Shown here one piece after another: positions 1,392 through 59,616 of a DNA stretch of 64,000 nucleotides. The notes under the pieces were generated by a model. That model saw only the letters and a list, made by a program, of their open reading frames with translations, was not told the origin of the DNA and did no database searches. The DNA is taken from the IMG/VR virus record IMGVR_UViG_3300010413_000005, positions 49,819 to 113,818 of that record. One strand, given 5' to 3'. The DNA comes from a virus. Made by a program: the position numbers and the translations under genes. Every line of letters begins with the position of its first letter. Positions within the stretch are counted from its first letter, which is position 1.

Positions 1392-2391
1392 CTGAAAGCT
1401 TTTTTACCAGTTGTGAATACCAAGTCACGTAATCTGACACATATTTCCAAGTGTATTCAGCTCCTGAAACACCTCCTGTAATCAAATTGTATTTACCCTC
1501 TAAAACCAAAGTCTTATGAATCTTTCCCTTCTTCAAGAACAGTACCGCTCCCCAATGGTAGTAATGAACCTCTCTCGCCCATTCTCCGGCCGATTGGATA
1601 TCCCTGGCCGGATCGTTAGGTCTGGGATCAAGATTGCGTTTCTTGATTATCTTTCTGACGAAATCGTAATCGAATTTGTTATTCTTGCTTAGGTGTATCA
1701 TGGGCCAAGTACCCTTGTCTATATATATCTGTGATATCTCGGGAAATTCTGATTCTGCCAGATACGTAAACGCCCTCCTGATTCGTAGGCTGGAATAGTC
1801 GACCGCGTTCTTGCTCACACCGATATACTTGGCTATCAATCCGTTGGTCATCTCGGATTCGCCTTCGTTGTCCATGAAAATCATGAACGCCTCCGGTGGA
1901 TGACACATGATATCCAAAACGGTCCGATCTCGTTCGCACAACTTGTTTCTCAATTTCATTTTCAATTCCAGGCGACGCTGGTTGTCTTCGGATTGTTCGT
2001 AAACGGAATACGGATCCGGGATGTCTCCCTTGATAGTTTCTCCGGATTGCTCGGCCATCTCTTCTATCGAGACTAACTGCCAAGCCTGTTTGGAAACTAT
2101 CATCCGTCCGTTTCTTTCTTGAACTACGTGCGGAACCTTGGAATTGGTCATAGAATTCTGTATTATTCTTATGGCTTCGTATCTCAAAACCTTACTGACG
2201 AATCTGTGGAATTTACCTCTTCCGGCGTTGAAATCGTACGAATCGAAACACCTCTGAAACATGGCCACGCGCAATTCTTGCATTGCGTCGTCGAACGGGA
2301 TACCGGAAGCGATGTTGATTTTTCTAGCGTGCGTTTTCAGAATTGGCCATACGTGCTTTTCCAAATCCGCGTACAATTCTTGTAAAACCAT
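1363..2391 (-). CDS. Phage RNA polymerase sigma factor (sigma70-like)
   Basis: A 342-residue protein with a sigma region 2-like segment near residues 30-80 (acidic-aromatic helix, then a GRGKFHRFV...RYEAIR stretch typical of the -10 recognition helix). A region 4-like helix-turn-helix lies near 165-215 (ERDRTVLDIM followed by IAKYIGVSKNAVDYSSLRIRRAF). About 115 further residues follow that I do not recognise. It would bind host core polymerase and direct it to phage promoters. The ATG at 2391 was chosen over an upstream start because AAGGGAGAT sits just before it. The gene overlaps the end of the CobT-like gene by 68 bases. Confidence 0.75.
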   Translation of the reverse strand: MVLQELYADLEKHVWPILKTHARKINIASGIPFDDAMQELRVAMFQRCFDSYDFNAGRGKFHRFVSKVLRYEAIRIIQNSMTNSKVPHVVQERNGRMIVSKQAWQLVSIEEMAEQSGETIKGDIPDPYSVYEQSEDNQRRLELKMKLRNKLCERDRTVLDIMCHPPEAFMIFMDNEGESEMTNGLIAKYIGVSKNAVDYSSLRIRRAFTYLAESEFPEISQIYIDKGTWPMIHLSKNNKFDYDFVRKIIKKRNLDPRPNDPARDIQSAGEWAREVHYYHWGAVLFLKKGKIHKTLVLEGKYNLITGGVSGAEYTWKYVSDYVTWYSQLVKKLSDARKQKKVP

Positions 2392-4006
2392 TTCGATCTC
2401 CCTTTTTACCGAACAACTTCTTTCCCAGACCACTGTACAAAGCCAAGGGTAAATCATCCAATTTCATTATCGCGGAACAAACGGCTCCGGTTTTCTGATT
2501 GTAAAATGCGGCCACATCTATAGTAAGCACGCCTATGGATATCACTTCTATTCCGGATTTCGTTATCGTTTCCACAGATTCAGCCAAATGGTTGGCTAAA
2601 ATACCACTGTCGCATCCGTACGCCAAGGGCGCTCCGTCCGACAATACAATCAACACTTTGCGCTTTTCTTGTCGCACTATCAAACGTTTAGCAGCAGACA
2701 AAATCGCTTCTCCGTCCGCGTTATCCATGTATCCGTCGATGAAAGAGAATCTACTTCTGCACACATTTAGTCTTTCATCGAATTCCTTGAATACTATGTA
2801 ATCGAACGGCGCTCGAGCCTGATATATCTCGTCTTCGAAGTTGATTCCCTTCGGATATCTTTCCACATTGTTGTGAAATCCCAATACTTCAAACGGGATT
2901 CCCAATCTCTCTATGGTGTCGGATAATCCTACGGCGGATACTCTTACGTGCCAAGCCTTGGTCTTTTTCTTTTTCGCCTTGCCCATGGAACCGGACAAGT
3001 CAATCAAAATCAATATCGCTGTTGAAGTATCGACCGGAGCTCCGCGTTCATAATGCACGTTTCGATTACCGGTTATGACCGAATGTAGAGAAGAAGAATC
3101 CAGAAATCCGCTATCTCGGTCGCCGATCGGAGCGCGTTCCTTTTCCGCTCTCATTGTTTCGATAATCGCCCTGCGCATCGCCGAAGCATTCTTCTTCGTT
3201 TCTGACAAGTCGGATACGAACGTGGACGCGTTTCCGGTAGTCGGTTTCACCCAACGGTCCATGGCCAAACAATCCGGATGCGGAATGTATCTGCCATTCT
3301 TCAACACGTCGTTCTTTGATTCCTGTTCGATTTTGTCTTTCAATCGCGATTTGAAATCGAAAGATTGCTCTCCGGCCGGAGGGATGAACGAAATCATAGG
3401 AGATATCTTCTTGGCCAATTCGTATGTACTTTCGGAATCGGCAAGCGATTTCACAGACAAAAACATCTCAGATATCGGTTCGTATTCGGATCTAACGTGA
3501 TCCGGAATCCACCTCAAATCCAGATTCAACCCGTCGGATATCGCTGCGCACAAAAGCATTTTGAAGTCGGACAATTCTCCGGCCTTGGATTGCTTCTCTA
3601 ACAACTTCGACGCCTCATTGTTGGAGAAATCCAGATTGTCTTTCATTCCCGGATAAATCGCGCCGTATTTCAATTCTATTCTGATGTCTTCCAAAGCGTT
3701 GAATGCCGACTTCACTTTCACGTCGGATTCGTTTTTGTACAGATCTACGGCGCCCCTCAAACCGCGATTCTTGGAATACACTTCTTCGGCCGCGTGACAC
3801 AATTCGTGATCCAGTTCTCCGTTCAACGCGCGCATTGAGGACTTGCCCAGTTTGTCCGAATTGTAAGGCAATCTTATCACGGTTCCGTCGAAATCACAAC
3901 GGCATCCGGTCATTTCCACTGATACGTGGTAATTGTTCGATATCGCGCGCGCTATGTTAGCGAACGGAGTCTCCAGCTTCCGGAGGTGTTGAACAGATTT
4001 TTTCAA
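2324..4006 (-). CDS. cobT-like: CobT-like VWA-domain protein with HExxH motif
   Basis: A 560-residue protein. The C-terminal half is a von Willebrand A domain with a full MIDAS motif (D336, S338, S340 in DLSGSMG) and a later LIVLSDGAP strand, as in the CobT subunit of aerobic cobaltochelatase. The N-terminal half carries HELCH (67-71), a zinc-binding HExxH pattern also seen in phage CobT-like proteins. It starts with TTG, supported by GGAGG six bases upstream and by a TTGA overlap with the AAA+ gene before it. CobS/CobT-type pairs form ring-ATPase plus VWA machines. In phages their target is not established, so true cobalt insertion is not implied. Confidence 0.8.
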   Translation of the reverse strand: MKKSVQHLRKLETPFANIARAISNNYHVSVEMTGCRCDFDGTVIRLPYNSDKLGKSSMRALNGELDHELCHAAEEVYSKNRGLRGAVDLYKNESDVKVKSAFNALEDIRIELKYGAIYPGMKDNLDFSNNEASKLLEKQSKAGELSDFKMLLCAAISDGLNLDLRWIPDHVRSEYEPISEMFLSVKSLADSESTYELAKKISPMISFIPPAGEQSFDFKSRLKDKIEQESKNDVLKNGRYIPHPDCLAMDRWVKPTTGNASTFVSDLSETKKNASAMRRAIIETMRAEKERAPIGDRDSGFLDSSSLHSVITGNRNVHYERGAPVDTSTAILILIDLSGSMGKAKKKKTKAWHVRVSAVGLSDTIERLGIPFEVLGFHNNVERYPKGINFEDEIYQARAPFDYIVFKEFDERLNVCRSRFSFIDGYMDNADGEAILSAAKRLIVRQEKRKVLIVLSDGAPLAYGCDSGILANHLAESVETITKSGIEVISIGVLTIDVAAFYNQKTGAVCSAIMKLDDLPLALYSGLGKKLFGKKGDRNGFTRIVRGFGKARMANSENAR

Positions 4007-5118
4007 GTAGTTCCTCCGAAATGTCTCTGTACCAATCCGCCTACGAAAACGGAATCCGAAGCGTCCATCTTATTCAATATGGTGATTCGCGCCGCTCGAG
4101 TTACATCTTTCAGTTTCAAATTTTTGCGCGACCATTCGATCAACGACCGAGTTGAAATGGACGAATAGCAATCTCCTCTACTGCAAGACTCTCTAACCAT
4201 GTTGGCCAATCTGACCATCTTGGTCGCCGTTCGGTCGTCTATTCCCTTACACCGCTTCATCAATATGGATTTTTCCACTTTCGGACTCGGGAACGTCATA
4301 TATATCACGACTCCGAACCGATCGACGAATGACTCTTTTTGAGGCAAATCATTACATGTAGCGATGATTCTGAAATTGGGATCGAATTCGATCGATCTGC
4401 CTCCGTCTCCGGTGATTACCAGCTGGCGAGGTTTGGTCATGGCGGTGTACAACGAAAACGATATGTGTCCGGGCATCGCTTCGACTTCTTCCAACAGTAG
4501 CCAATAACCGCGATCGGCCGATATCGGTAGCGAACCGTCAAACCATTCGGTTTTTGATTGCCCGGTCTTCTTGTCGATGGTCACACCCTTTTCTCCGATG
4601 AATTCGGCTTTGCGCATATCCCCATCGTTTTGTACCCTCAATACCGGTTGATTGCAGATCGAAGCCAACTCCATAACCAGGGTGGATTTACCGACTCCGA
4701 CCGGTCCGTGTATCAGAACATTGTCGTCATCTTCGATTCCCAAAGACAACTCCTCAAGATGACCCGCTTCTCGATCTGATATGATCCATTCCGGATCATG
4801 TATCGGAACCATTTTGGAATCTCTCTCCGAGAGCTCTCTTTTGAAAGAAGGACTCGCAGCCCCTATTCTGAATACTGTAAAAGATGATCCGGTTCCCGGA
4901 TCGACTCCGATTATGTTATGGCGACTTGCCTCTTTGCGCAATTGGTGCGCTGCGTCGCTGACCGTCGGAGCTCCGGGATACTTGTTCAGATACGCGATGA
5001 CGTCCATATCGTGTTTCTTGTTCACGTGGACGTCTAATCGATGATACCATTGTCCGCATTCTTTACACTGTATTTTTTTGCGGCCTTTTCCGTCAATGCT
5101 GCTAGTAGGATCTCCCAT
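4003..5118 (-). CDS. cobS-like: CobS-like MoxR-family AAA+ ATPase with MucR-like zinc finger
   Basis: A 371-residue protein. Residues 18-36 form a zinc finger (C18, C21, H31, H36) followed by a YLNKYPGAP segment, similar to the MucR/Ros finger. A MoxR/CobS-type AAA+ domain follows, with Walker A GPVGVGKST (138-146), Walker B LLLEEVEA (207-214) and an ATCND sensor-1 strand. It is the ATPase partner of the overlapping VWA protein. A promoter-like pair (TTGCCT-N17-TATATT) ends only nine bases before the ATG and there is no Shine-Dalgarno site, so the message may be nearly leaderless. Confidence 0.85.
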   Translation of the reverse strand: MGDPTSSIDGKGRKKIQCKECGQWYHRLDVHVNKKHDMDVIAYLNKYPGAPTVSDAAHQLRKEASRHNIIGVDPGTGSSFTVFRIGAASPSFKRELSERDSKMVPIHDPEWIISDREAGHLEELSLGIEDDDNVLIHGPVGVGKSTLVMELASICNQPVLRVQNDGDMRKAEFIGEKGVTIDKKTGQSKTEWFDGSLPISADRGYWLLLEEVEAMPGHISFSLYTAMTKPRQLVITGDGGRSIEFDPNFRIIATCNDLPQKESFVDRFGVVIYMTFPSPKVEKSILMKRCKGIDDRTATKMVRLANMVRESCSRGDCYSSISTRSLIEWSRKNLKLKDVTRAARITILNKMDASDSVFVGGLVQRHFGGTT

Positions 5119-6189: not shown

Positions 6190-6499
6190 GATCTCCGATT
6201 ACTTTGTCCACCAATTTCTTGAACATATTTCGTCGCTTTTGGTATTCCGGTTTGGATGGATCGTTGTTCGGACCCATCCACTTTTTCGGATCTCTGTCCA
6301 GCGCTCGTTTGATTCGTCTAAACGATTCCGACCACTCGAACTTCGCCGATGTCACGTTGCCCGTAGTCGCCAATTTGCGTAGCGACATACGATCGAAAGA
6401 ACCCAAGGAATCCAAAGCCAACATAGCCCAATAGCATTCGTCGTAAGTAGGCTTTTTTCCGCTTTTTGCCGCTTCTATGATTTCGAATAGCGTTCTCAT
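6173..6499 (-). CDS. Hypothetical protein in replication cluster
   Basis: A 108-residue, mostly helical, basic protein not recognised. It has a conserved-looking aromatic core (YDECYWAML near residues 19-27) and ends in an acidic/basic helix. The start shares ATGA with the gene before it, and the end overlaps the primase start, so it is translated as part of the helicase-primase operon. A role in replication is suggested only by position. Confidence 0.75.
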   Translation of the reverse strand: MRTLFEIIEAAKSGKKPTYDECYWAMLALDSLGSFDRMSLRKLATTGNVTSAKFEWSESFRRIKRALDRDPKKWMGPNNDPSKPEYQKRRNMFKKLVDKVIGDHEQGV

Positions 6500-6717
6500 T
6501 TCTTATCCCTGGCTATCCATGTGCGCAATTCTCTGCCGACCAATTCGGTGGCTTCCGTGTATCCGAATCCGCCTCTTTCCGCGATTCGTTCGGCGCTTTG
6601 TCCGCAATGATATTTCTTATCATAAGCCAACCAAATTTCCAAATGCTCTTCCCAAGAAATGGTTCCTCTCGGATGTCCGTTTTCAGCCTGTATCGGTGCA
6701 CGTTTTTGTTCGCTCAT
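6496..6717 (-). CDS. Small hypothetical protein between helicase and primase
   Basis: A 73-residue protein. Residues 20-70 (an EEHLEIWLAYDKKY stretch, then AERIAERGGFGYTEATELV) look like a small helix-turn-helix: helix, AERI-type helix, turn, recognition-like helix. It could bind DNA or be a helicase/primase adaptor. It overlaps both neighbours by four bases (ATGA), the mark of tight translational coupling. Confidence 0.7.
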   Translation of the reverse strand: MSEQKRAPIQAENGHPRGTISWEEHLEIWLAYDKKYHCGQSAERIAERGGFGYTEATELVGRELRTWIARDKK

Positions 6718-8114
6718 CTTCTGTCCTCAACTTCCTTCTCCCGGATTCTCATCTTGTGATATTCAGCGAGCGCCGGAACGATCTTGCCGGATTCTCCGTC
6801 GCGATGTTTCGCTATGAACAAATCGAGCGCTTTCTCCGGTCCTTCTTCCGGAGCTTCAAATTCCTCGTCAATCTCTTCGTCGTCTTCGGTGACCTTGACT
6901 TCTTTCTTCCTGTTCTGTTTGCCGTAATCCGGATCGTTCACGCTGATAATCAAGTCGGCAATTCGAGCCTTGTCGTAGCTTTCGGCCGTCCCTTCAGCCA
7001 TAGCCGTTTTATCAGCCCACTGAGAACCAGCGTGAACGCTGGAATATATGGCGTATCCTTCGTCTTCTCCTAACCCCTTGGCTCTCCAATAAACCTCAGA
7101 TTGCTGCAGCCGAAATTTCTCTCCTCTCATATTCGTGGCCAATATGTGATCCAACGAATCGAAACAAATCAACTTCGGCCGCCAACCGTCGAATTGTTCT
7201 TTCAAATCCTCCAAAAGCGTAATCACGTCTTCGAACGTTGCGGACCGGACCGGGAACGAGGCGATTTTCAATTTGTTATTGAACTTCTTGGCCATCTTTT
7301 TGTAGCGCTTATCGATGGCTCGAGCGTCCTGCGGTGTGAGATTGTAACCCTTCAAATCCTTGTAGTTCATTCCCAACCACAAAGCATCAGCTCGAGTCGC
7401 GACCTGGCGCGCCGGCATTTCGAACGGTATCACAAGAGTCTCATATCCCTGCTTTATCGAGTGGTACGCCAGATTGTTGAGAGCGATCGATTTGCCTTTA
7501 CCGGTCGTTCCCATTATCAGACCCAACTCTCCTATTCGCAACCCCTTTGTTATATTGTCTATCGTCTTCCATCCGGTCATTATCGCTGTTACTTCGTCCG
7601 GATGTTCTCTTTCGTATTTTCTGGCGTCTTGACGATCGTAAAACTCCTCTACCCAATTGATCAGAGTGTACTTTCTCTCCTCAACTTTCTTTTTGCTGGC
7701 TTCTCCGAAAACCTTGTAAACGTCGTCCAAGTCTCCGTCTTCGAGATGTTTTGCCCCCTGTTCCAAAGCCAGCTGCGCGTTTACATACAAAACGAATTTC
7801 TTCAATCGCTCGAGCGCCAATTTCGGATTATCCGCGCGTTTCTTGGCTATCCTCTTCACCGCTTGCAGATGGGATAGTCTCTCCTCTTGTTTCCTGCGGA
7901 AGTTCTCCTTGGCTATGGCCATGTACATTTTCGGAGTCGGAGTCTCTCCGAATTGCGTCAAAGAGTATCTCAACACGCTCCAAATCCAAGAGCGCTCCTT
8001 GCTTCCGAAATGATGAGCGTCGCAGATCCGGATGGCCTGTTTCGCGTACGCCTTGTCGCGCATCGCACAAGCTAAGATGGTTTCTTCAAACTCTTTATCG
8101 AACTTACGATCCAT
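6714..8114 (-). CDS. Replicative DNA helicase (DnaB/gp41-like, RecA fold)
   Basis: A 466-residue ring helicase that unwinds the phage fork. The N-terminal helical domain (about 1-140) is followed by the RecA-type core with Walker A GTTGKGKS (202-209), a VIPFEMP strand with the conserved glutamate near 230, and the Walker B strand PKLICFDSLDH. The C-terminal tail has an acidic run (EDDEEIDEEFEAPEE). The start overlaps the loader gene by 11 bases and the end overlaps the next gene by four. The order loader-helicase-primase supports the call. Confidence 0.88.
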   Translation of the reverse strand: MDRKFDKEFEETILACAMRDKAYAKQAIRICDAHHFGSKERSWIWSVLRYSLTQFGETPTPKMYMAIAKENFRRKQEERLSHLQAVKRIAKKRADNPKLALERLKKFVLYVNAQLALEQGAKHLEDGDLDDVYKVFGEASKKKVEERKYTLINWVEEFYDRQDARKYEREHPDEVTAIMTGWKTIDNITKGLRIGELGLIMGTTGKGKSIALNNLAYHSIKQGYETLVIPFEMPARQVATRADALWLGMNYKDLKGYNLTPQDARAIDKRYKKMAKKFNNKLKIASFPVRSATFEDVITLLEDLKEQFDGWRPKLICFDSLDHILATNMRGEKFRLQQSEVYWRAKGLGEDEGYAIYSSVHAGSQWADKTAMAEGTAESYDKARIADLIISVNDPDYGKQNRKKEVKVTEDDEEIDEEFEAPEEGPEKALDLFIAKHRDGESGKIVPALAEYHKMRIREKEVEDRR

Positions 8115-8778
8115 TATATCCCATAGATTTGGACATTTCTGTTGCTTCTTTGGTTCTGTAATCTCCTCCTAACATTTCCACTGTTTTATATTTCCCAGTA
8201 AGCATTGAGCTGATCGTCGGACCGTACGATTCACGCAGATCCTTTTCACTGAGATTGGAAGCCAACAACGTAGGGAAAGCGTTGTCGTATCTGTTCTTCA
8301 ACAGAGCTTCCAAACGAGAAGCCAAGAACCCACTTTTCGAAGTGTGCTCTTTGCCCAGCTCGTCTATGAACAGAAAATCGGAGTTCAAACAATATCGCAA
8401 CAGTTCGGCCGCGACCGGACTGTCGAATCCGATTTTGATATTGGTATCCAAATCGCTCAAAGTGGTGTAATAAATCCTGTACCCTACTCGGACCGCTCTT
8501 CCCAAGATGTAACAGCCGAACATGGTTTTTCCGTTGCCGTTATCGCCCACGAATAGCAATCCGTATCCATTGTTGTACGCTCTGTGTAGTTTATTCTTGT
8601 ATTTGAGCACTACCGACTGAAAGATATCCACGTTGTGTGTGACGTCCGACGATTTGACGTACCAATGAATCGATGGAACACAACCCCTGTAAAGAGCCAA
8701 GTCGTATCTGTGTTTTGAGTTCTTCAGGTTGTATTTTCTGTCCATCGCGAACGATAGGACTTCGCTATCACTTCTCAT
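8104..8778 (-). CDS. DnaC/IstB-like AAA+ helicase loader
   Basis: A 224-residue ATPase with Walker A GDNGNGKT (78-85), Walker B FLFIDELGKEH near 134-144 and a LLASNLS sensor-1 segment near 172, the pattern of DnaC-type loaders. It would place the DnaB-like helicase on the origin opened by the initiator. The ATG at 8778 is preferred over an in-frame GTG at 8787 because AGGTG lies seven bases before it. The start overlaps the initiator gene by 11 bases. Confidence 0.82.
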   Translation of the reverse strand: MRSDSEVLSFAMDRKYNLKNSKHRYDLALYRGCVPSIHWYVKSSDVTHNVDIFQSVVLKYKNKLHRAYNNGYGLLFVGDNGNGKTMFGCYILGRAVRVGYRIYYTTLSDLDTNIKIGFDSPVAAELLRYCLNSDFLFIDELGKEHTSKSGFLASRLEALLKNRYDNAFPTLLASNLSEKDLRESYGPTISSMLTGKYKTVEMLGGDYRTKEATEMSKSMGYNGS

Positions 8779-10366
8779 TCGAATCACCTAGGTTTTTCAC
8801 CGCCCAATTGACAATCGGACGCAATGTCGGAGACATAAATATCTTATTTCCGTTACGCACGCTGTCTGCCATACTCTGAATCGTCGCCAAAAAACGGTCG
8901 CTGTACAACGTCGAATCCAACCCCAATGATCTTATGCCTTCGCGCAATCGCTCGTCTAGCGAATTCGTATCTGCGAATGTATTTTTGATTTTTTCCCTTG
9001 GTTTATCGCTCTTTTTGCGTTTATCCAGATTGGCGCAAGCCACCTGGTCTATCATCGCCGGAGACTTGAGTATGGACACCGGAGGTATGGTCAAGCCTTT
9101 TCTCGCGAAGGAGCCTATATGTTCGTGCCAATACTCGAGAACTTGCCGCGGAGTCACCCCCTTCTCGATGCACAACACTCCGGCCTCTTCCGCATATGAC
9201 TTCTCCTTGTCTGGAAGCACAGAAGGAAACGAGATCGGCCGGCCCTGCGATACTTCGGCCGCGCGGCGATACCGGACGTAGATTCTCGAGAACTCCACTC
9301 CCAGTTTGGCGATCAGTTTCTTGCGTGAGTTGTCACGTTTCGATTTGCTCAATATCCGGAGCATGCGCGGTCGCTCTTTGCTGTTCGGATCGAACGACAC
9401 GCTCGGGTGTCCCCTCTGGTCCAGATTCTCGAAGCGAATTTCTTTACCTCGACGCAAGTCGAGTTCGGCAACTTGTTGCCGAAGGTTTCTCCTCCCAGAA
9501 TCAGCACGTTTCTTCTCCGAAGAAACGAGTACTTTAAATTTGTTTAAATTTAATTTACTTAAATTACTTAAATTTAAATTAGTTAAATTAGGGGATCCAA
9601 GGGGAGCGACTTTAGTCCCTTCCGAGTTGTTTTCAGATTGTTTGTTTTCAACAACTCGATTCGTTTGTTGTAAGTATCCGTCTTCTTTGGTGAATTTCCT
9701 TCTTTTTATCAATTTTTCTTCAACTTTTATTGTATTCCGAATTGTTGATAAATCGCCAGATAGTAAATACAAATTATCTTGATTATTAGTGGTTATATTT
9801 TCTATTAGCATTGAATTGTTGTCGTATGTTTTATAATGATGTAATCGATCGCGTAATACGCAAACATAAAATTGTCCCGCGTAATCATAATAAGTTGTAT
9901 TTGCAGGTTGTGTATTTCCTTTATAATATTGTAAGCGCTTCGATTGTAAAATCAATTCGGATAACGTGACGGCGCTTACATTATTTTCTAACATGAAATT
10001 TGACAATCTAGTGACCGCGTATCCGCTCTTGATCATCAATTTTCTCTCCACTACGACTTCAGTAGGTTTGCCAGATCCGTGTGGAATGAAACTGATGTAA
10101 TTCTTGCGCTCGAGTTCTCTCAATATCTGATTGCTACGACGTTGTGAATACTCCAACTTGTGTGCCAACGCCGTACGTCCGGACTTCAACGTCTTGGAGT
10201 CGTACGTCAAAAGTTTCATCCACACTGCTAGCGCCGGACACGATAACTCTTCACAAGCGGTTTCGATATCGGCCGGACCTTCCCAAGGAAACAATTCTTT
10301 CGTAGCTTTGAAACGCGTTCCGGAGGAATGTTTCGTAGTGGAAAGTATGGGAATGTGTTTTTTCAT
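8768..10366 (-). CDS. Replication initiator-like protein with winged helix and internal AT-rich origin candidate
   Basis: A 532-residue protein. The N-terminal part (about 30-100) is a winged helix: LSCPALAVWMKLLTYDS, SGRTALAHKLEYSQRRSNQILRELERKNYI, then a basic wing. The C-terminal 200 residues are helical and end just before the DnaC-like loader, the order of lambda O-P or primosomal DnaD-type initiators. The middle is low in complexity (Asn/Leu/Lys runs) because the DNA there is extremely AT-rich and holds iteron-like motifs. The ATG at 10366 was chosen over a start 14 codons upstream, which would lie inside a large inverted repeat. Confidence 0.7.
   Translation of the reverse strand: MKKHIPILSTTKHSSGTRFKATKELFPWEGPADIETACEELSCPALAVWMKLLTYDSKTLKSGRTALAHKLEYSQRRSNQILRELERKNYISFIPHGSGKPTEVVVERKLMIKSGYAVTRLSNFMLENNVSAVTLSELILQSKRLQYYKGNTQPANTTYYDYAGQFYVCVLRDRLHHYKTYDNNSMLIENITTNNQDNLYLLSGDLSTIRNTIKVEEKLIKRRKFTKEDGYLQQTNRVVENKQSENNSEGTKVAPLGSPNLTNLNLSNLSKLNLNKFKVLVSSEKKRADSGRRNLRQQVAELDLRRGKEIRFENLDQRGHPSVSFDPNSKERPRMLRILSKSKRDNSRKKLIAKLGVEFSRIYVRYRRAAEVSQGRPISFPSVLPDKEKSYAEEAGVLCIEKGVTPRQVLEYWHEHIGSFARKGLTIPPVSILKSPAMIDQVACANLDKRKKSDKPREKIKNTFADTNSLDERLREGIRSLGLDSTLYSDRFLATIQSMADSVRNGNKIFMSPTLRPIVNWAVKNLGDSNEK
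9535..9990. other. Candidate replication origin inside the initiator gene
   Basis: The region around 9535-9593 is nearly pure A/T with repeated TTAAATTTAA-like units, a natural unwinding element. Between 9828 and 9987 lie three copies of a TAATGTAAGCG-like motif: a degenerate copy at 9828-9847, a good copy at 9923-9940, and an inverted copy at 9970-9987. The same motif forms a phased array at 59424-59482. An origin inside the initiator gene is known from lambdoid phages. Binding and origin function are inferred. Confidence 0.55.
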
Positions 10367-12207: not shown

Positions 12208-12741
12208 TCACTCCTCCTGTTCGATTATGACCGGATGTTCTTTGTCTCGTTTGAGCATCCTTTCCGTTATTGTTTCCACGTTGTTCACATTTTCGTTATC
12301 TCTTTTCTTGTACGGATCTTCTTCGGTGCTGATTCGCGTCCACAATCTTTCGTCGTAGTGATACGGAACGGCTAGAGCTCCTTGTTCGCAATCAGCCAAG
12401 GCATGAATCGCTTCGTGCATCATGGTGTGCTTGAAAGCGGTTCCTTTCAAATCGCTGGCGATTGCTATTTCGTTTTTATCGTAAGTGGTGCAACCAGCTA
12501 TCGAATCCTTGGTTCTACCGTTACAAGTTATAGGTCTGTCTTTGATTATCACATCGTAATTGAAAAGGTCCGCGTAGCACCGATCGCTTACCCTCCATAT
12601 CATCATGTCCCAAGCTGCGACCGAGATCAACATCTCGGGATATTCGACTTGTTCGCCTGGACGCAGTTCGTACGGATCCGTTTGGCAGGCGGACGATATC
12701 GCGAGCGCCAACCCGATTAGTAGTATGTTCAACTTTTTCAT
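12208..12741 (-). CDS. Lipoprotein with HExxHxxxD metalloprotease motif
   Basis: A 177-residue protein. A signal peptide (KK, then a hydrophobic run) ends in ISSAC with the lipid-accepting cysteine at 19, so it is probably exported and lipid-anchored. Residues 109-117 read HEAIHALAD, the HExxHxxxD zinc-site pattern of some small peptidases. Four further cysteines (54, 73, 84, 118) could form disulfides in the periplasm. The C-terminus is acidic-basic mixed. It may act in lysis, superinfection exclusion or processing of an envelope protein. A phage-encoded lipoprotein also argues for a host with lipoprotein export. Confidence 0.7.
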   Translation of the reverse strand: MKKLNILLIGLALAISSACQTDPYELRPGEQVEYPEMLISVAAWDMMIWRVSDRCYADLFNYDVIIKDRPITCNGRTKDSIAGCTTYDKNEIAIASDLKGTAFKHTMMHEAIHALADCEQGALAVPYHYDERLWTRISTEEDPYKKRDNENVNNVETITERMLKRDKEHPVIIEQEE

Positions 12742-40783: not shown

Positions 40784-42500
40784 CGATAGCCTCCTTTATG
40801 ATTGCCATATTTCTTTCGGCTTCACGGAACGCTTCTGGAGGCGTTCCCTCTGGAAACAATTCTATGACCTTTTGTGCCCAAAACAAACTTTCTTCCAATT
40901 TCCCCAATTCTCCACAAACCATAGCTAGGCGTTGGGCCGGAATGTGTCCGTAATAGGACAAATCAATCCACCACACAGTGAACGGAGGGTCACCCATAGT
41001 GGTGGTAGCGTACACGTAGAATCTGTACGCTTTCTCGTATTCCTTGGATAACATGGCCATATCGCCTAACCAAACCCAATGTTCGGTACGACACCAATCG
41101 TCCTTCGTACAACCCATAAGGCATTCGTAGGCTTCTTTTCGTTCTCCGCGGCGCATTCGTTCTTTTGCCAACATCAATCTGGCTTGATATTTTTGAACTC
41201 CGTTGTTGGAAACGCCTAAAAATTGCTCCAAGCGCTCGATCGCCTTTTGCGGATTCAATTCGCGCCATTCTTGTCCGAGATAGAAAAGACTTTGCACACT
41301 TTCTCCGGTGCGCCAATCGTCCATCAGTTGTTTTCTATTTTGTGCCCGTCTTTGTACCGCTCGAGTCTCCGCCCTTTGTTGGCTTCGTTGATGAAGCGTT
41401 TTCACGAGCGGCAATTGAACGCACAGAGCCTTTTCCGGCCAAATCAATTCGTTGTGGACCGGTCGCCGGAACCGGATATCCGGCCGATTGCGAAACAACC
41501 AAGGAAAAGCCCACCGCTGTCCGTTGCCTTGTCGGAATACAAATCCCACGGAACAATTGGACGGTATGATGGTATCGAGATTCAACAATACGTCCATGCC
41601 TTCGACGAGATATTCGTGCCCTTCGGTCATGAATATCCATTCTCCGGAACATTGTTCGATACACTGATTGCGACACCAACTGAAATGTATTTTGTCTCCT
41701 CCCAAATCCTCTTCGGGAGGTCCGCTCGGTCGATCTAAGTAGAAAACCTTGTCGGCGTACTGTTTGGCTATCTCGAATGTGCGATCTTTCGATCTAGGAT
41801 CCACACCTACGACAAATTCATCTGCGATTCCGCGATACGTAGCCAACGTATTTGCTAGATCCAATTCTTCGTCTCGGACCGGAAGCGTCACCGACATCTT
41901 GTATTTCTTACGGGCGATATCTCCGCAAATGCCTAACAGATATCCGCCGATAACTTCGACTCTGACACATTCCCAATACTCTTTGAGATAATCCAGAAAT
42001 TGTTTCGCCGTCCATTTACGCGTGTGTTGTCTCTCTTCGTCCGGACCCAACCTATTGTTCGGAACGCTGATGAAGGCATAATTGGAATTGTCCGCGATGA
42101 ATGACAACAATCGCGCGCGCGCGCGTTTACCTAGATGCTCGATGAATTCGGTGGAAACAAATACGTCGCTGACCGGAATCGAGTCAACTTCTGATCTCAA
42201 ATCGGCTTTGTGCGTGATATCTACGCAGCCAGTATCCATTGCGTGCTTCAACGCGATTTCGCTGTGGTCGACTACGCATATGGATACTTTCGGGAGGACT
42301 TCGGAGAACACTTCGGCGAAAGAACCGACTCCGCCTCCGACGTCAGTCAGCGTCGCCGCTTTATATGGAGTGCATTGCGCTATTCTTTGATAAACGCGAA
42401 CTAGAGCGCTTTTCCTCCAAGTCTCGTGCCCTTCTTCGCCCCATATTTTATCCCAAACTAATTCGCTGTTTGCCTTATCGGCTATTCGGTCGATGGTCAT
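40764..42500 (-). CDS. SAM methyltransferase - GT2 glycosyltransferase - TPR fusion
   Basis: A 578-residue protein with three parts. Residues 1-200: class I methyltransferase with DVGGGVGS (53-60) as motif I, VVDHS as motif II and FISVPNNR near 143-150. Residues 202-370: GT2-type glycosyltransferase fold with SVTLPVRDEE at its start, VVGVDPRSKDRT and the acidic EWIFMTEGHEYL strand that usually binds the nucleotide-sugar metal. Residues about 400-570: TPR helices (YLGQEWREL, AIERLEQFLG, VWLGDMAMLSKEYEKAYRFYVYA). It would modify a protein or glycan during virion assembly. Neighbours are virion genes, including the Ser/Thr repeat protein, its best candidate substrate. Confidence 0.8.
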   Translation of the reverse strand: MTIDRIADKANSELVWDKIWGEEGHETWRKSALVRVYQRIAQCTPYKAATLTDVGGGVGSFAEVFSEVLPKVSICVVDHSEIALKHAMDTGCVDITHKADLRSEVDSIPVSDVFVSTEFIEHLGKRARARLLSFIADNSNYAFISVPNNRLGPDEERQHTRKWTAKQFLDYLKEYWECVRVEVIGGYLLGICGDIARKKYKMSVTLPVRDEELDLANTLATYRGIADEFVVGVDPRSKDRTFEIAKQYADKVFYLDRPSGPPEEDLGGDKIHFSWCRNQCIEQCSGEWIFMTEGHEYLVEGMDVLLNLDTIIPSNCSVGFVFRQGNGQRWAFPWLFRNRPDIRFRRPVHNELIWPEKALCVQLPLVKTLHQRSQQRAETRAVQRRAQNRKQLMDDWRTGESVQSLFYLGQEWRELNPQKAIERLEQFLGVSNNGVQKYQARLMLAKERMRRGERKEAYECLMGCTKDDWCRTEHWVWLGDMAMLSKEYEKAYRFYVYATTTMGDPPFTVWWIDLSYYGHIPAQRLAMVCGELGKLEESLFWAQKVIELFPEGTPPEAFREAERNMAIIKEAIDATTQR

Positions 42501-58887: not shown

Positions 58888-59111
58888 TAGATCTCCTCAT
58901 GGGAAGATATTAGCGTGTCGATATCGGTCACGCTGATCCTTCCGTCTCGAGATACGACTACGAAATCGCTGTAAGGGGCGCCGTTGTTTTTACCGACTGC
59001 CTCCACCTTCGCCACCGTTCCGTATCTTCTACTCCTCCACATAGATCCTTCTTTTACTGGAACTCGATCGTTATACCCTAACGCCTTGCGTATGATCGAT
59101 CTGATATTCAA
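58887..59111 (-). CDS. Hypothetical early protein, TTG start
   Basis: A 74-residue protein with a small SH3-like beta-barrel pattern (RVPVKEGSMWRSRRYGTVAKVEAVGKNNGAPYSDFVVVSRDGRISV). The TTG start gives a TTGA overlap with the previous gene; the Shine-Dalgarno site is weak. Similar small barrels bind nucleic acid or polymerase, but this is a guess. Confidence 0.5.
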   Translation of the reverse strand: MNIRSIIRKALGYNDRVPVKEGSMWRSRRYGTVAKVEAVGKNNGAPYSDFVVVSRDGRISVTDIDTLISSHEEI

Positions 59112-59356
59112 CCTTGTTCCCGGTTACGTGTGGGCGTGAATTTGTTGTGTACGCAATAAGCTCGTTCGGTCGCTCCGGAATATCTGAAGTGCCATTCTGA
59201 CAAACATTCGTCCAGACGCTTTCGAATCTCCTTTTTCGTTACTCCGAACTTGTCCGACAATTGCTTGATTGTGTATCCTTGCGCATCCGATTTGGCCAAG
59301 TAATTGATTAGTTGTTGGCTTGTAACGGTCGGTTTCCCTTTTCGATCCTTTTTCAT
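59108..59356 (-). CDS. Winged-helix DNA-binding protein
   Basis: An 82-residue protein with a winged-helix fold: TVTSQQLINYLAKSDAQGYTIKQLSDKFGVTKKEIRKRLDECL (10-52) and a basic wing (WHFRYSGATERAYCVHNK). It lies directly downstream of the iteron array, so it might regulate that region or replication. RBS is GGAGAG. A 22-base stretch inside it (59220-59241) is identical to the leader of the gene at 59616 (see findings). Confidence 0.65.
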   Translation of the reverse strand: MKKDRKGKPTVTSQQLINYLAKSDAQGYTIKQLSDKFGVTKKEIRKRLDECLSEWHFRYSGATERAYCVHNKFTPTRNREQG

Positions 59357-59423
59357 TTCTCTCCTTTATACTCAAAATATTTTGTAAATATGAATTTCGA
59401 TAAACCTGTGATTTTATGTTTTA

Positions 59424-59616
59424 TAATAATGTAAGCGTTTGAGAAAATAATGTAAGCGTTTGAGAAAATAATGTAAGCGCCTATTTTTATGGTATTTTAT
59501 ATTGGTCGTTTTATACCTTCCATCGATCTCGTTTTTACAATTCATCACAGTGAAAATAGAGACTAAAGTCGCGTAAAGTGATAATAGATAATATATTAGA
59601 AAGTATTGTAAGCGCC
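59424..59616. repeat. Iteron-like repeats, phased at 21 bp
   Basis: Three direct copies of AATAATGTAAGCG lie at 59424-59440, 59444-59461 and 59465-59482. The GTAAGCG cores begin at 59431, 59452 and 59473, exactly 21 bases apart, two turns of the helix. A fourth copy, TATTGTAAGCGCC, is at 59604-59616. The whole gap 59357-59615 is AT-rich and otherwise empty. The same motif, including its TTTTATAAT flank, occurs in the initiator gene. This looks like an initiator binding array and candidate second origin or control site. Confidence 0.7.

Follow-up and report, generated by a model that had tools for sequence, protein, structure and literature searches.

Iterons of a putative initiator at a candidate in-gene origin and at distant loci of a large environmental phage

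Introduction

Why would an intergenic gap in a phage genome carry phased copies of a repeat that also lies inside a replication gene some 50 kb away? The question is raised by the stretch of viral DNA analysed here (the window, 64,000 nucleotides), for which a first-pass annotation had proposed that a single initiator binds both sites, either as two origins or as an origin plus an autoregulatory or handcuffing site. The analysis below covers the whole record from which the window was taken, together with a set of related phages in which the same arrangement could be compared.

The phage and its map

The window corresponds to positions 49,819-113,818 of a contig that totals 113,818 bp. The contig ends carry an exact 144-bp direct terminal repeat, and so the map closes as a circle of 113,674 bp. 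From its tail sheath, portal and terminase genes, the virus is a tailed, myovirus-like phage; it is labelled G000 in the multi-genome comparison. The genome encodes a UvsX-like recombinase, SbcCD-like subunits, an exonuclease, a RuvC-like resolvase and its own DNA polymerase. The polymerase (1545 aa; L011:685-5322, minus strand) contains an internal HNH-endonuclease-like stretch with the look of an intein or insertion. A sigma-70-like factor of 430 aa with regions 2, 3 and 4 is also phage-encoded (L009:16817-18109, minus strand).

At several genes, with starts at record positions 12510, 13171, 14187, 109727 and 113689, the ribosome-binding site is overlapped by the element GGAGATTCGAA; nine copies of GGAGATTCGA are on the coding strand, one of them inside the terminal repeat, and two on the other strand.

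Three clusters of one repeat

The repeat in the gap has the consensus TATGTTTTATAATAWTGTAAGCGC, of which the whole genome holds 13 copies with at most one mismatch, against 0.2 expected. The word AATAWTGTAAGCG likewise gives 13 matches at this threshold in the whole record against 0.2 under a first-order Markov null, a count that overstates significance because the word, like those used for the relatives, was picked after the data had been seen. Within the window, nine matches are found at up to two mismatches where 1.5 are expected, and none of 100 shuffles reaches nine. All 13 copies fall into three clusters, here called A, B (in the initiator gene) and C (the reported gap). Thus the absence of copies scattered through the genome was borne out. 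The full-genome motif search did not confine the motif to two loci, since it uncovered a third and larger cluster, A, with seven sites at record positions 6266-7476, outside the window and within the largest non-coding region (locus L009). Clusters B and C are composed as follows.

59376..59615, no strand: ORF-free gap around cluster C (ORF map)
59425..59437, plus strand: cluster C iteron, exact AATAATGTAAGCG (motif match)
59446..59458, plus strand: cluster C iteron, exact AATAATGTAAGCG (motif match)
59467..59479, plus strand: cluster C iteron, exact AATAATGTAAGCG (motif match)
59602..59614, plus strand: cluster C variant iteron AGTATTGTAAGCG, two mismatches to AATAATGTAAGCG (motif match)
9835..9847, plus strand: cluster B degenerate iteron, two mismatches (motif match)
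9925..9937, plus strand: cluster B iteron, one mismatch to AATAATGTAAGCG (motif match)
9973..9985, minus strand: cluster B iteron, exact (motif match)

Cluster C therefore consists of four sites, three of them exact and phased at 21 bp as first described (the cores given in that description were one base off) and the fourth the variant that had been placed near 59604. Cluster B has two good copies and one degenerate copy, and the presence of the motif in the initiator gene, once in inverted orientation, was likewise confirmed. By the shorter way round the circle, B and C are about 49.6 kb apart, in agreement with the distance of 50 kb first reported.

Clusters A and C occupy the longest ORF-free gaps of the genome, as defined by a simple ORF rule, and the A+T-rich DNA beside their iterons ranks third and fourth in the genome. 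A separate repeat family, GGTTTGAAAAGGTA with GGTAGGGAAA-like flanks, sits mostly a few kb from region A (record positions 3344, 4745, 4786, 5767 and 21096; loci L009 and L010). A search of Rfam gave no match in the four stretches searched, region A included. When viral contigs were scanned with the pattern TTTTATAATAWTGTAAGCG, only two contigs matched, each with a single copy in seemingly unrelated coding DNA.

Alignment of 14 sites with their flanks (the 13 copies plus the degenerate one) gave a consensus close to TATGTTTTATAATAATGTAAGCGC. Many copies include TATAAT, and with a sigma-70-like factor encoded by the phage one might take the repeats for promoters served by that factor. This explanation is scarcely credible: TATAAT is missing from five of the 14 copies, the conserved part being TGTAAGCG, most copies are oriented against the genes and none lies ahead of the structural operons, and the iterons of the other phages described below lack TATAAT.

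The initiator gene and its neighbours

The gene that houses cluster B lies in a replication block with the following features.

8768..10366, minus strand: replication initiator gene, 532 aa, O-like, with a winged-helix N domain, a disordered linker and a C domain (gene order, conserved domains, model)
10031..10276, minus strand: part coding for the winged-helix domain, residues 30-111, the likely reader of the iterons (alignment, model, fold matches)
9541..9590, no strand: A+T-rich element, 92%, a likely DNA unwinding element (richest 50-bp window of the genome)
8104..8787, minus strand: DnaC-like helicase loader (phrog_50, E 1e-29)
6714..8114, minus strand: DnaB-like replicative helicase (phrog_19, E 3e-52)

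The order of initiator, loader and helicase is retained in the relatives. A gene for a MoxR-like AAA ATPase (window 2324-5118, minus strand) adjoins one for a VWA-like protein, both named by eye; this pair flanks the replication block and is also retained in the relatives.

The initiator of the closest relative compared is about 40% identical in the N domain (30-111) and the C domain (271-525), and the middle part is unalignable. The AlphaFold model has low confidence over residues 112-269 and is mostly ordered over 27-111 and 270-528, and the N domain resembles winged helices at weak E-values, including the plasmid initiator structures 4pt7 and 5kbj. The B iterons sit in the unconserved, linker-encoding DNA between the two conserved domains, with the A+T-rich stretch at the end of the linker. 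That stretch had been described as composed of A and T only; at 92% it is not pure, yet no other 50 bp of the genome is as rich in A+T. The protein itself has no PHROG match at E 0.1, no match to the Phage_rep_O Pfam family was found in any of eight members at E 0.1, and PF06970 (RepA_N) matched none of the initiators searched. In place of a family match, it is gene order, fold and the sites that point to an initiator function.

Relatives of the phage

Relatives were found with the helicase as query and then through alignments of initiator and terminase; the initiator as single query confirmed no relative. No relative was found among genome contigs, and these therefore give no clue to a host or prophage. 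Several relatives are unclosed contigs, and distances across their contig ends are minimum values. In six of the relatives (G002, G007, G008, G010, G013 and G014; loci L020, L107, L117, L126, L130 and L134), the initiator is encoded by two ORFs, one for the N domain and one for the C domain, which flank the origin spacer; in G002 these two reading frames have no overlap.

Position of the origin

The proposal of a lambda-like origin within the initiator gene is supported by both GC skew and the A+T-rich element at B. In the phage under study, detrended cumulative GC skew reaches its lowest value 0.6 kb from the B spacer, and in eight of nine near-complete genomes (G000, G002, G003, G004, G005, G006, G008 and G009) the minimum is within 3.5 kb of the initiator spacer, the sole exception being G007. 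Because the genes on both sides of B in the phage under study are co-oriented, the skew step there is not a gene-strand effect; gene-strand switches could confound the skew in G008, and perhaps in G004. A two-breakpoint fit with the arrays masked placed the G000 origin at +1.3 kb (90% interval, -2.4 to +4.4 kb), and the interval covers the spacer in five of seven genomes, the spacer being excluded in G006 and G009. In G000, G005, G006 and G010, moreover, no 50-bp window of the genome is richer in A+T than the one in the initiator spacer. Judged from these sequence features, it is highly probable that B is the origin.

The first-pass annotation had suggested looking for a skew switch at either site. 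One is present at the initiator gene and absent at the gap, and in this genome none of the origin type is seen at A either. For this reason A and C are probably not co-equal origins, and by skew they are not strong bidirectional origins; the notion of two equal bidirectional origins is not supported. Could A (or C) be the main origin, with the in-gene sites serving only in autoregulation? Cluster A does have the most sites, the largest non-coding region and A+T-rich DNA. This arrangement is nevertheless very improbable, because most genomes have their origin-type switch at the initiator gene, and not at A or C, and because no distal array was detected in three of the relatives (G003, G007 and G009).

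With arrays masked, the second skew switch falls at 65-74 kb in G000, past A and C, and in G002, G005 and G006 roughly 6-10 kb before the array. The idea that A is a replication terminus was weakened once the array regions were masked, since the second switch is not at A, and the skew gives no direct backing to a terminus or a fork barrier at the arrays.

The same layout with different iterons

In the nine near-complete genomes, the words of each initiator spacer were searched against the rest of the same genome, and in six of them a distal array repeats the iteron found in or at the initiator spacer. The iterons are listed here with their motif counts against a first-order Markov null, which overstate significance for the reason given above, and with the fraction of random source windows that scored as high when both strands were required, which yields optimistic p-values because the both-strand criterion was adopted after the first null result had been seen.

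G000: AATAWTGTAAGCG; 13 against 0.2 expected; 0/60
G002: AACCCWATTACC; 13 against 0.3; 1/60
G004: TCGGACTTTCCCAG; 8 against 0.7; fails the both-strand test
G005: CAGTTACCCR; 9 against 0.1; 1/60
G006: CACAGTTACCCG; 10 against 0.1; 0/60
G008: CGTGTACCANAAATGAGMCACGG; 13 against 0; 2/60

In the earlier null test, on one strand, random coding windows often scored as high as these genomes, which we ascribe to tandem repeats in coding DNA. Under the both-strand test no significant distal cluster was found in three of the nine near-complete genomes, G003, G007 and G009. The failure of G004 is explained by the placement of both its four-copy arrays on one strand, a case that the test misses by design; its array at 64.9 kb is an almost exact copy of the four 22-bp iterons in the gene, and it is on this visible array that the genome was counted. 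The array overlaps long ORFs and may lie in coding DNA. An element of G003, GGTTTT...AAAACA, seemed by eye to be common to the gene and a non-coding region, but this was not upheld. In the same genome, record positions 41001-41500 (L033:1001-1500) have an extreme GC skew of +0.54 and G-rich repeats, and lie in the variable segment that in G000 contains region A.

The distal arrays lie 52.6-53.8 and 64.3-64.5 kb downstream of B in G000 and, at positions that agree with these, 54.2-55.3 and 64.9-66.1 kb downstream in G002. Those of G005 and G006 are at 38-39 and 42-43 kb, and those of G008 at 98-100 kb. G005 and G006 have winged helices that are 78% identical and share the same iteron core, whereas no other pair exceeds 51% identity, and within those pairs the iterons differ. 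This is suggestive of co-variation between iteron and winged helix, with one informative pair and no statistical weight.

The iterons found in the gene recur at the distal sites, differ between phages and appear to track the winged helix, and it is on these grounds very likely that the initiator binds the sites of all the clusters. The proposal of one initiator for both sites thereby receives strong, if indirect, support from six genomes, each with its own iteron in gene and distal array. The conserved layout and the phage-specific repeats suggest that all copies are bound by a single initiator protein that changes fast in evolution.

The repeats might instead be operators of a transcription regulator, either the initiator or a small helix-turn-helix (HTH) protein (59108-59356), and the in-gene copies would then be incidental or autoregulatory. 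Cluster C is directly upstream of the small HTH gene, and the third site group of G002 is in short intergenic gaps. BLAST, however, gave no match to the small HTH protein in G002, G003 or G001, whereas the layout that includes the initiator gene is common to the relatives; the in-gene sites lie at the GC-skew minimum, beside the A+T-rich element; and promoter scans show no excess at C and, at A, 7 against 3.7 +/- 1.6 expected. Operators are therefore an improbable explanation.

Roles of the distal arrays

Extra copies of iterons have known effects in other replicons. The incA and incC iterons of P1 and F and chromosomal titration sites limit or time initiation, and in iteron plasmids extra iterons lower the copy number by handcuffing, the pairing of initiator-bound sites. 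By analogy, B might be the origin while A and C are control sites that titrate the initiator or handcuff with B, and so limit or time initiation. The phage under study has 11 sites away from the origin against two good and one degenerate at it, a distal excess is also found in G002, G005 and G006, as a sink would need, and A and C lack origin-type skew. On the other side, a sink has no need of the A+T-rich DNA at A and C, though the iterons are themselves A+T-rich, and copy-number control would be of little gain to a fast lytic phage, if this phage is lytic. On balance we regard control sites as unlikely.

Among phages, the nearest precedent found for an initiator that serves both an origin in its own gene and a remote second site is SPP1, in which gp38 (G38P) binds the repeats of oriL, inside gene 38, and those of oriR; oriR-bound gp38 has been proposed to stall forks and trigger concatemer synthesis (PMC6316719, PMC3485210). 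Like SPP1, the phage under study has its initiator gene in one block with a loader and a DnaB-type helicase, repeats and A+T-rich DNA inside that gene, the same repeats and A+T-rich DNA at a distant non-coding locus, and recombination functions. It differs in size (113.7 kb against 44 kb), in having three clusters rather than two, and in arcs of about 50-64 kb against 12-13 kb. Unlike SPP1, it is myovirus-like, has its own DNA polymerase and an initiator that matches no known initiator family, and is known from sequence alone.

The explanation that we favour as a whole, with a probability of about 0.6, is that the repeats are initiator iterons, with B as main origin and A and C comparable to oriR of SPP1. 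The repeats would be the iterons of the phage's own 532-aa O-like initiator. Its winged-helix domain would bind the B iterons and the adjoining A+T-rich DNA would open, and the C domain together with the DnaC-like loader would place the DnaB-like helicase at the opened B. The same initiator would also occupy the seven sites of A and the four of C, which may form a secondary locus that acts, like oriR, as a late origin or protein roadblock and aids the switch from circle-to-circle replication to recombination-dependent concatemer replication. The recombinase, SbcCD-like subunits, exonuclease and resolvase correspond to what such a switch in replication mode would need. The SPP1-like role of A and C, drawn from precedent, falls a little short of even odds.

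Comparison with other in-gene origins

In lambda, iterons followed by an A+T-rich tract are found in the middle of gene O (PMC7466680). The iterons and A+T-rich tract of the phage under study are also in the middle of the initiator gene; unlike those of lambda, its iterons are fewer, spread out and in both orientations, and its initiator has no match to Phage_rep_O. In the same spacer-word test, the lambda record showed no distal iteron cluster.

For the RepA_N protein Rep of plasmid pSK41, the relevant passages of one account place the Rep boxes centrally in the rep gene, with the linker encoded by origin DNA, and state that proteins without the origin-encoded linker can rescue replication (PMC5703833). 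The initiator described here resembles RepA_N proteins in its modelled winged-helix N domain, origin-encoded linker and separate C domain. It differs in lacking a match to PF06970, and RepA_N proteins belong to plasmids, not phages; distal arrays, present here, are not mentioned for pSK41 in those passages (PMC5703833).

The lytic origin oriL of P1 is thought to lie inside the initiator gene repL and to need an A+T-rich region there (PMC9948254). The phage under study shares an A+T-rich region and a probable origin within the initiator gene, in an unrelated gene arrangement. We know of no distal iteron array for P1 RepL.

Significance

The function of the second site of SPP1 is still a model, and a family of collinear phages provides natural replicates of the arrangement. 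With a common layout and different iterons, these phages allow ideas on what the second locus does to be tested by comparison. From sequence alone, one can predict where uncultured phages have their origins and second loci and which sequences their initiators recognise. The results also suggest that a DNA-binding domain and its sites, spread across 100 kb, have changed in concert. It is put forward tentatively that these are a family of large environmental phages in which initiator-bound arrays, tens of kb from the in-gene origin and at as many as three loci per genome, govern the passage from theta to concatemeric replication, and in which the recognition domain and its dispersed arrays may co-evolve.
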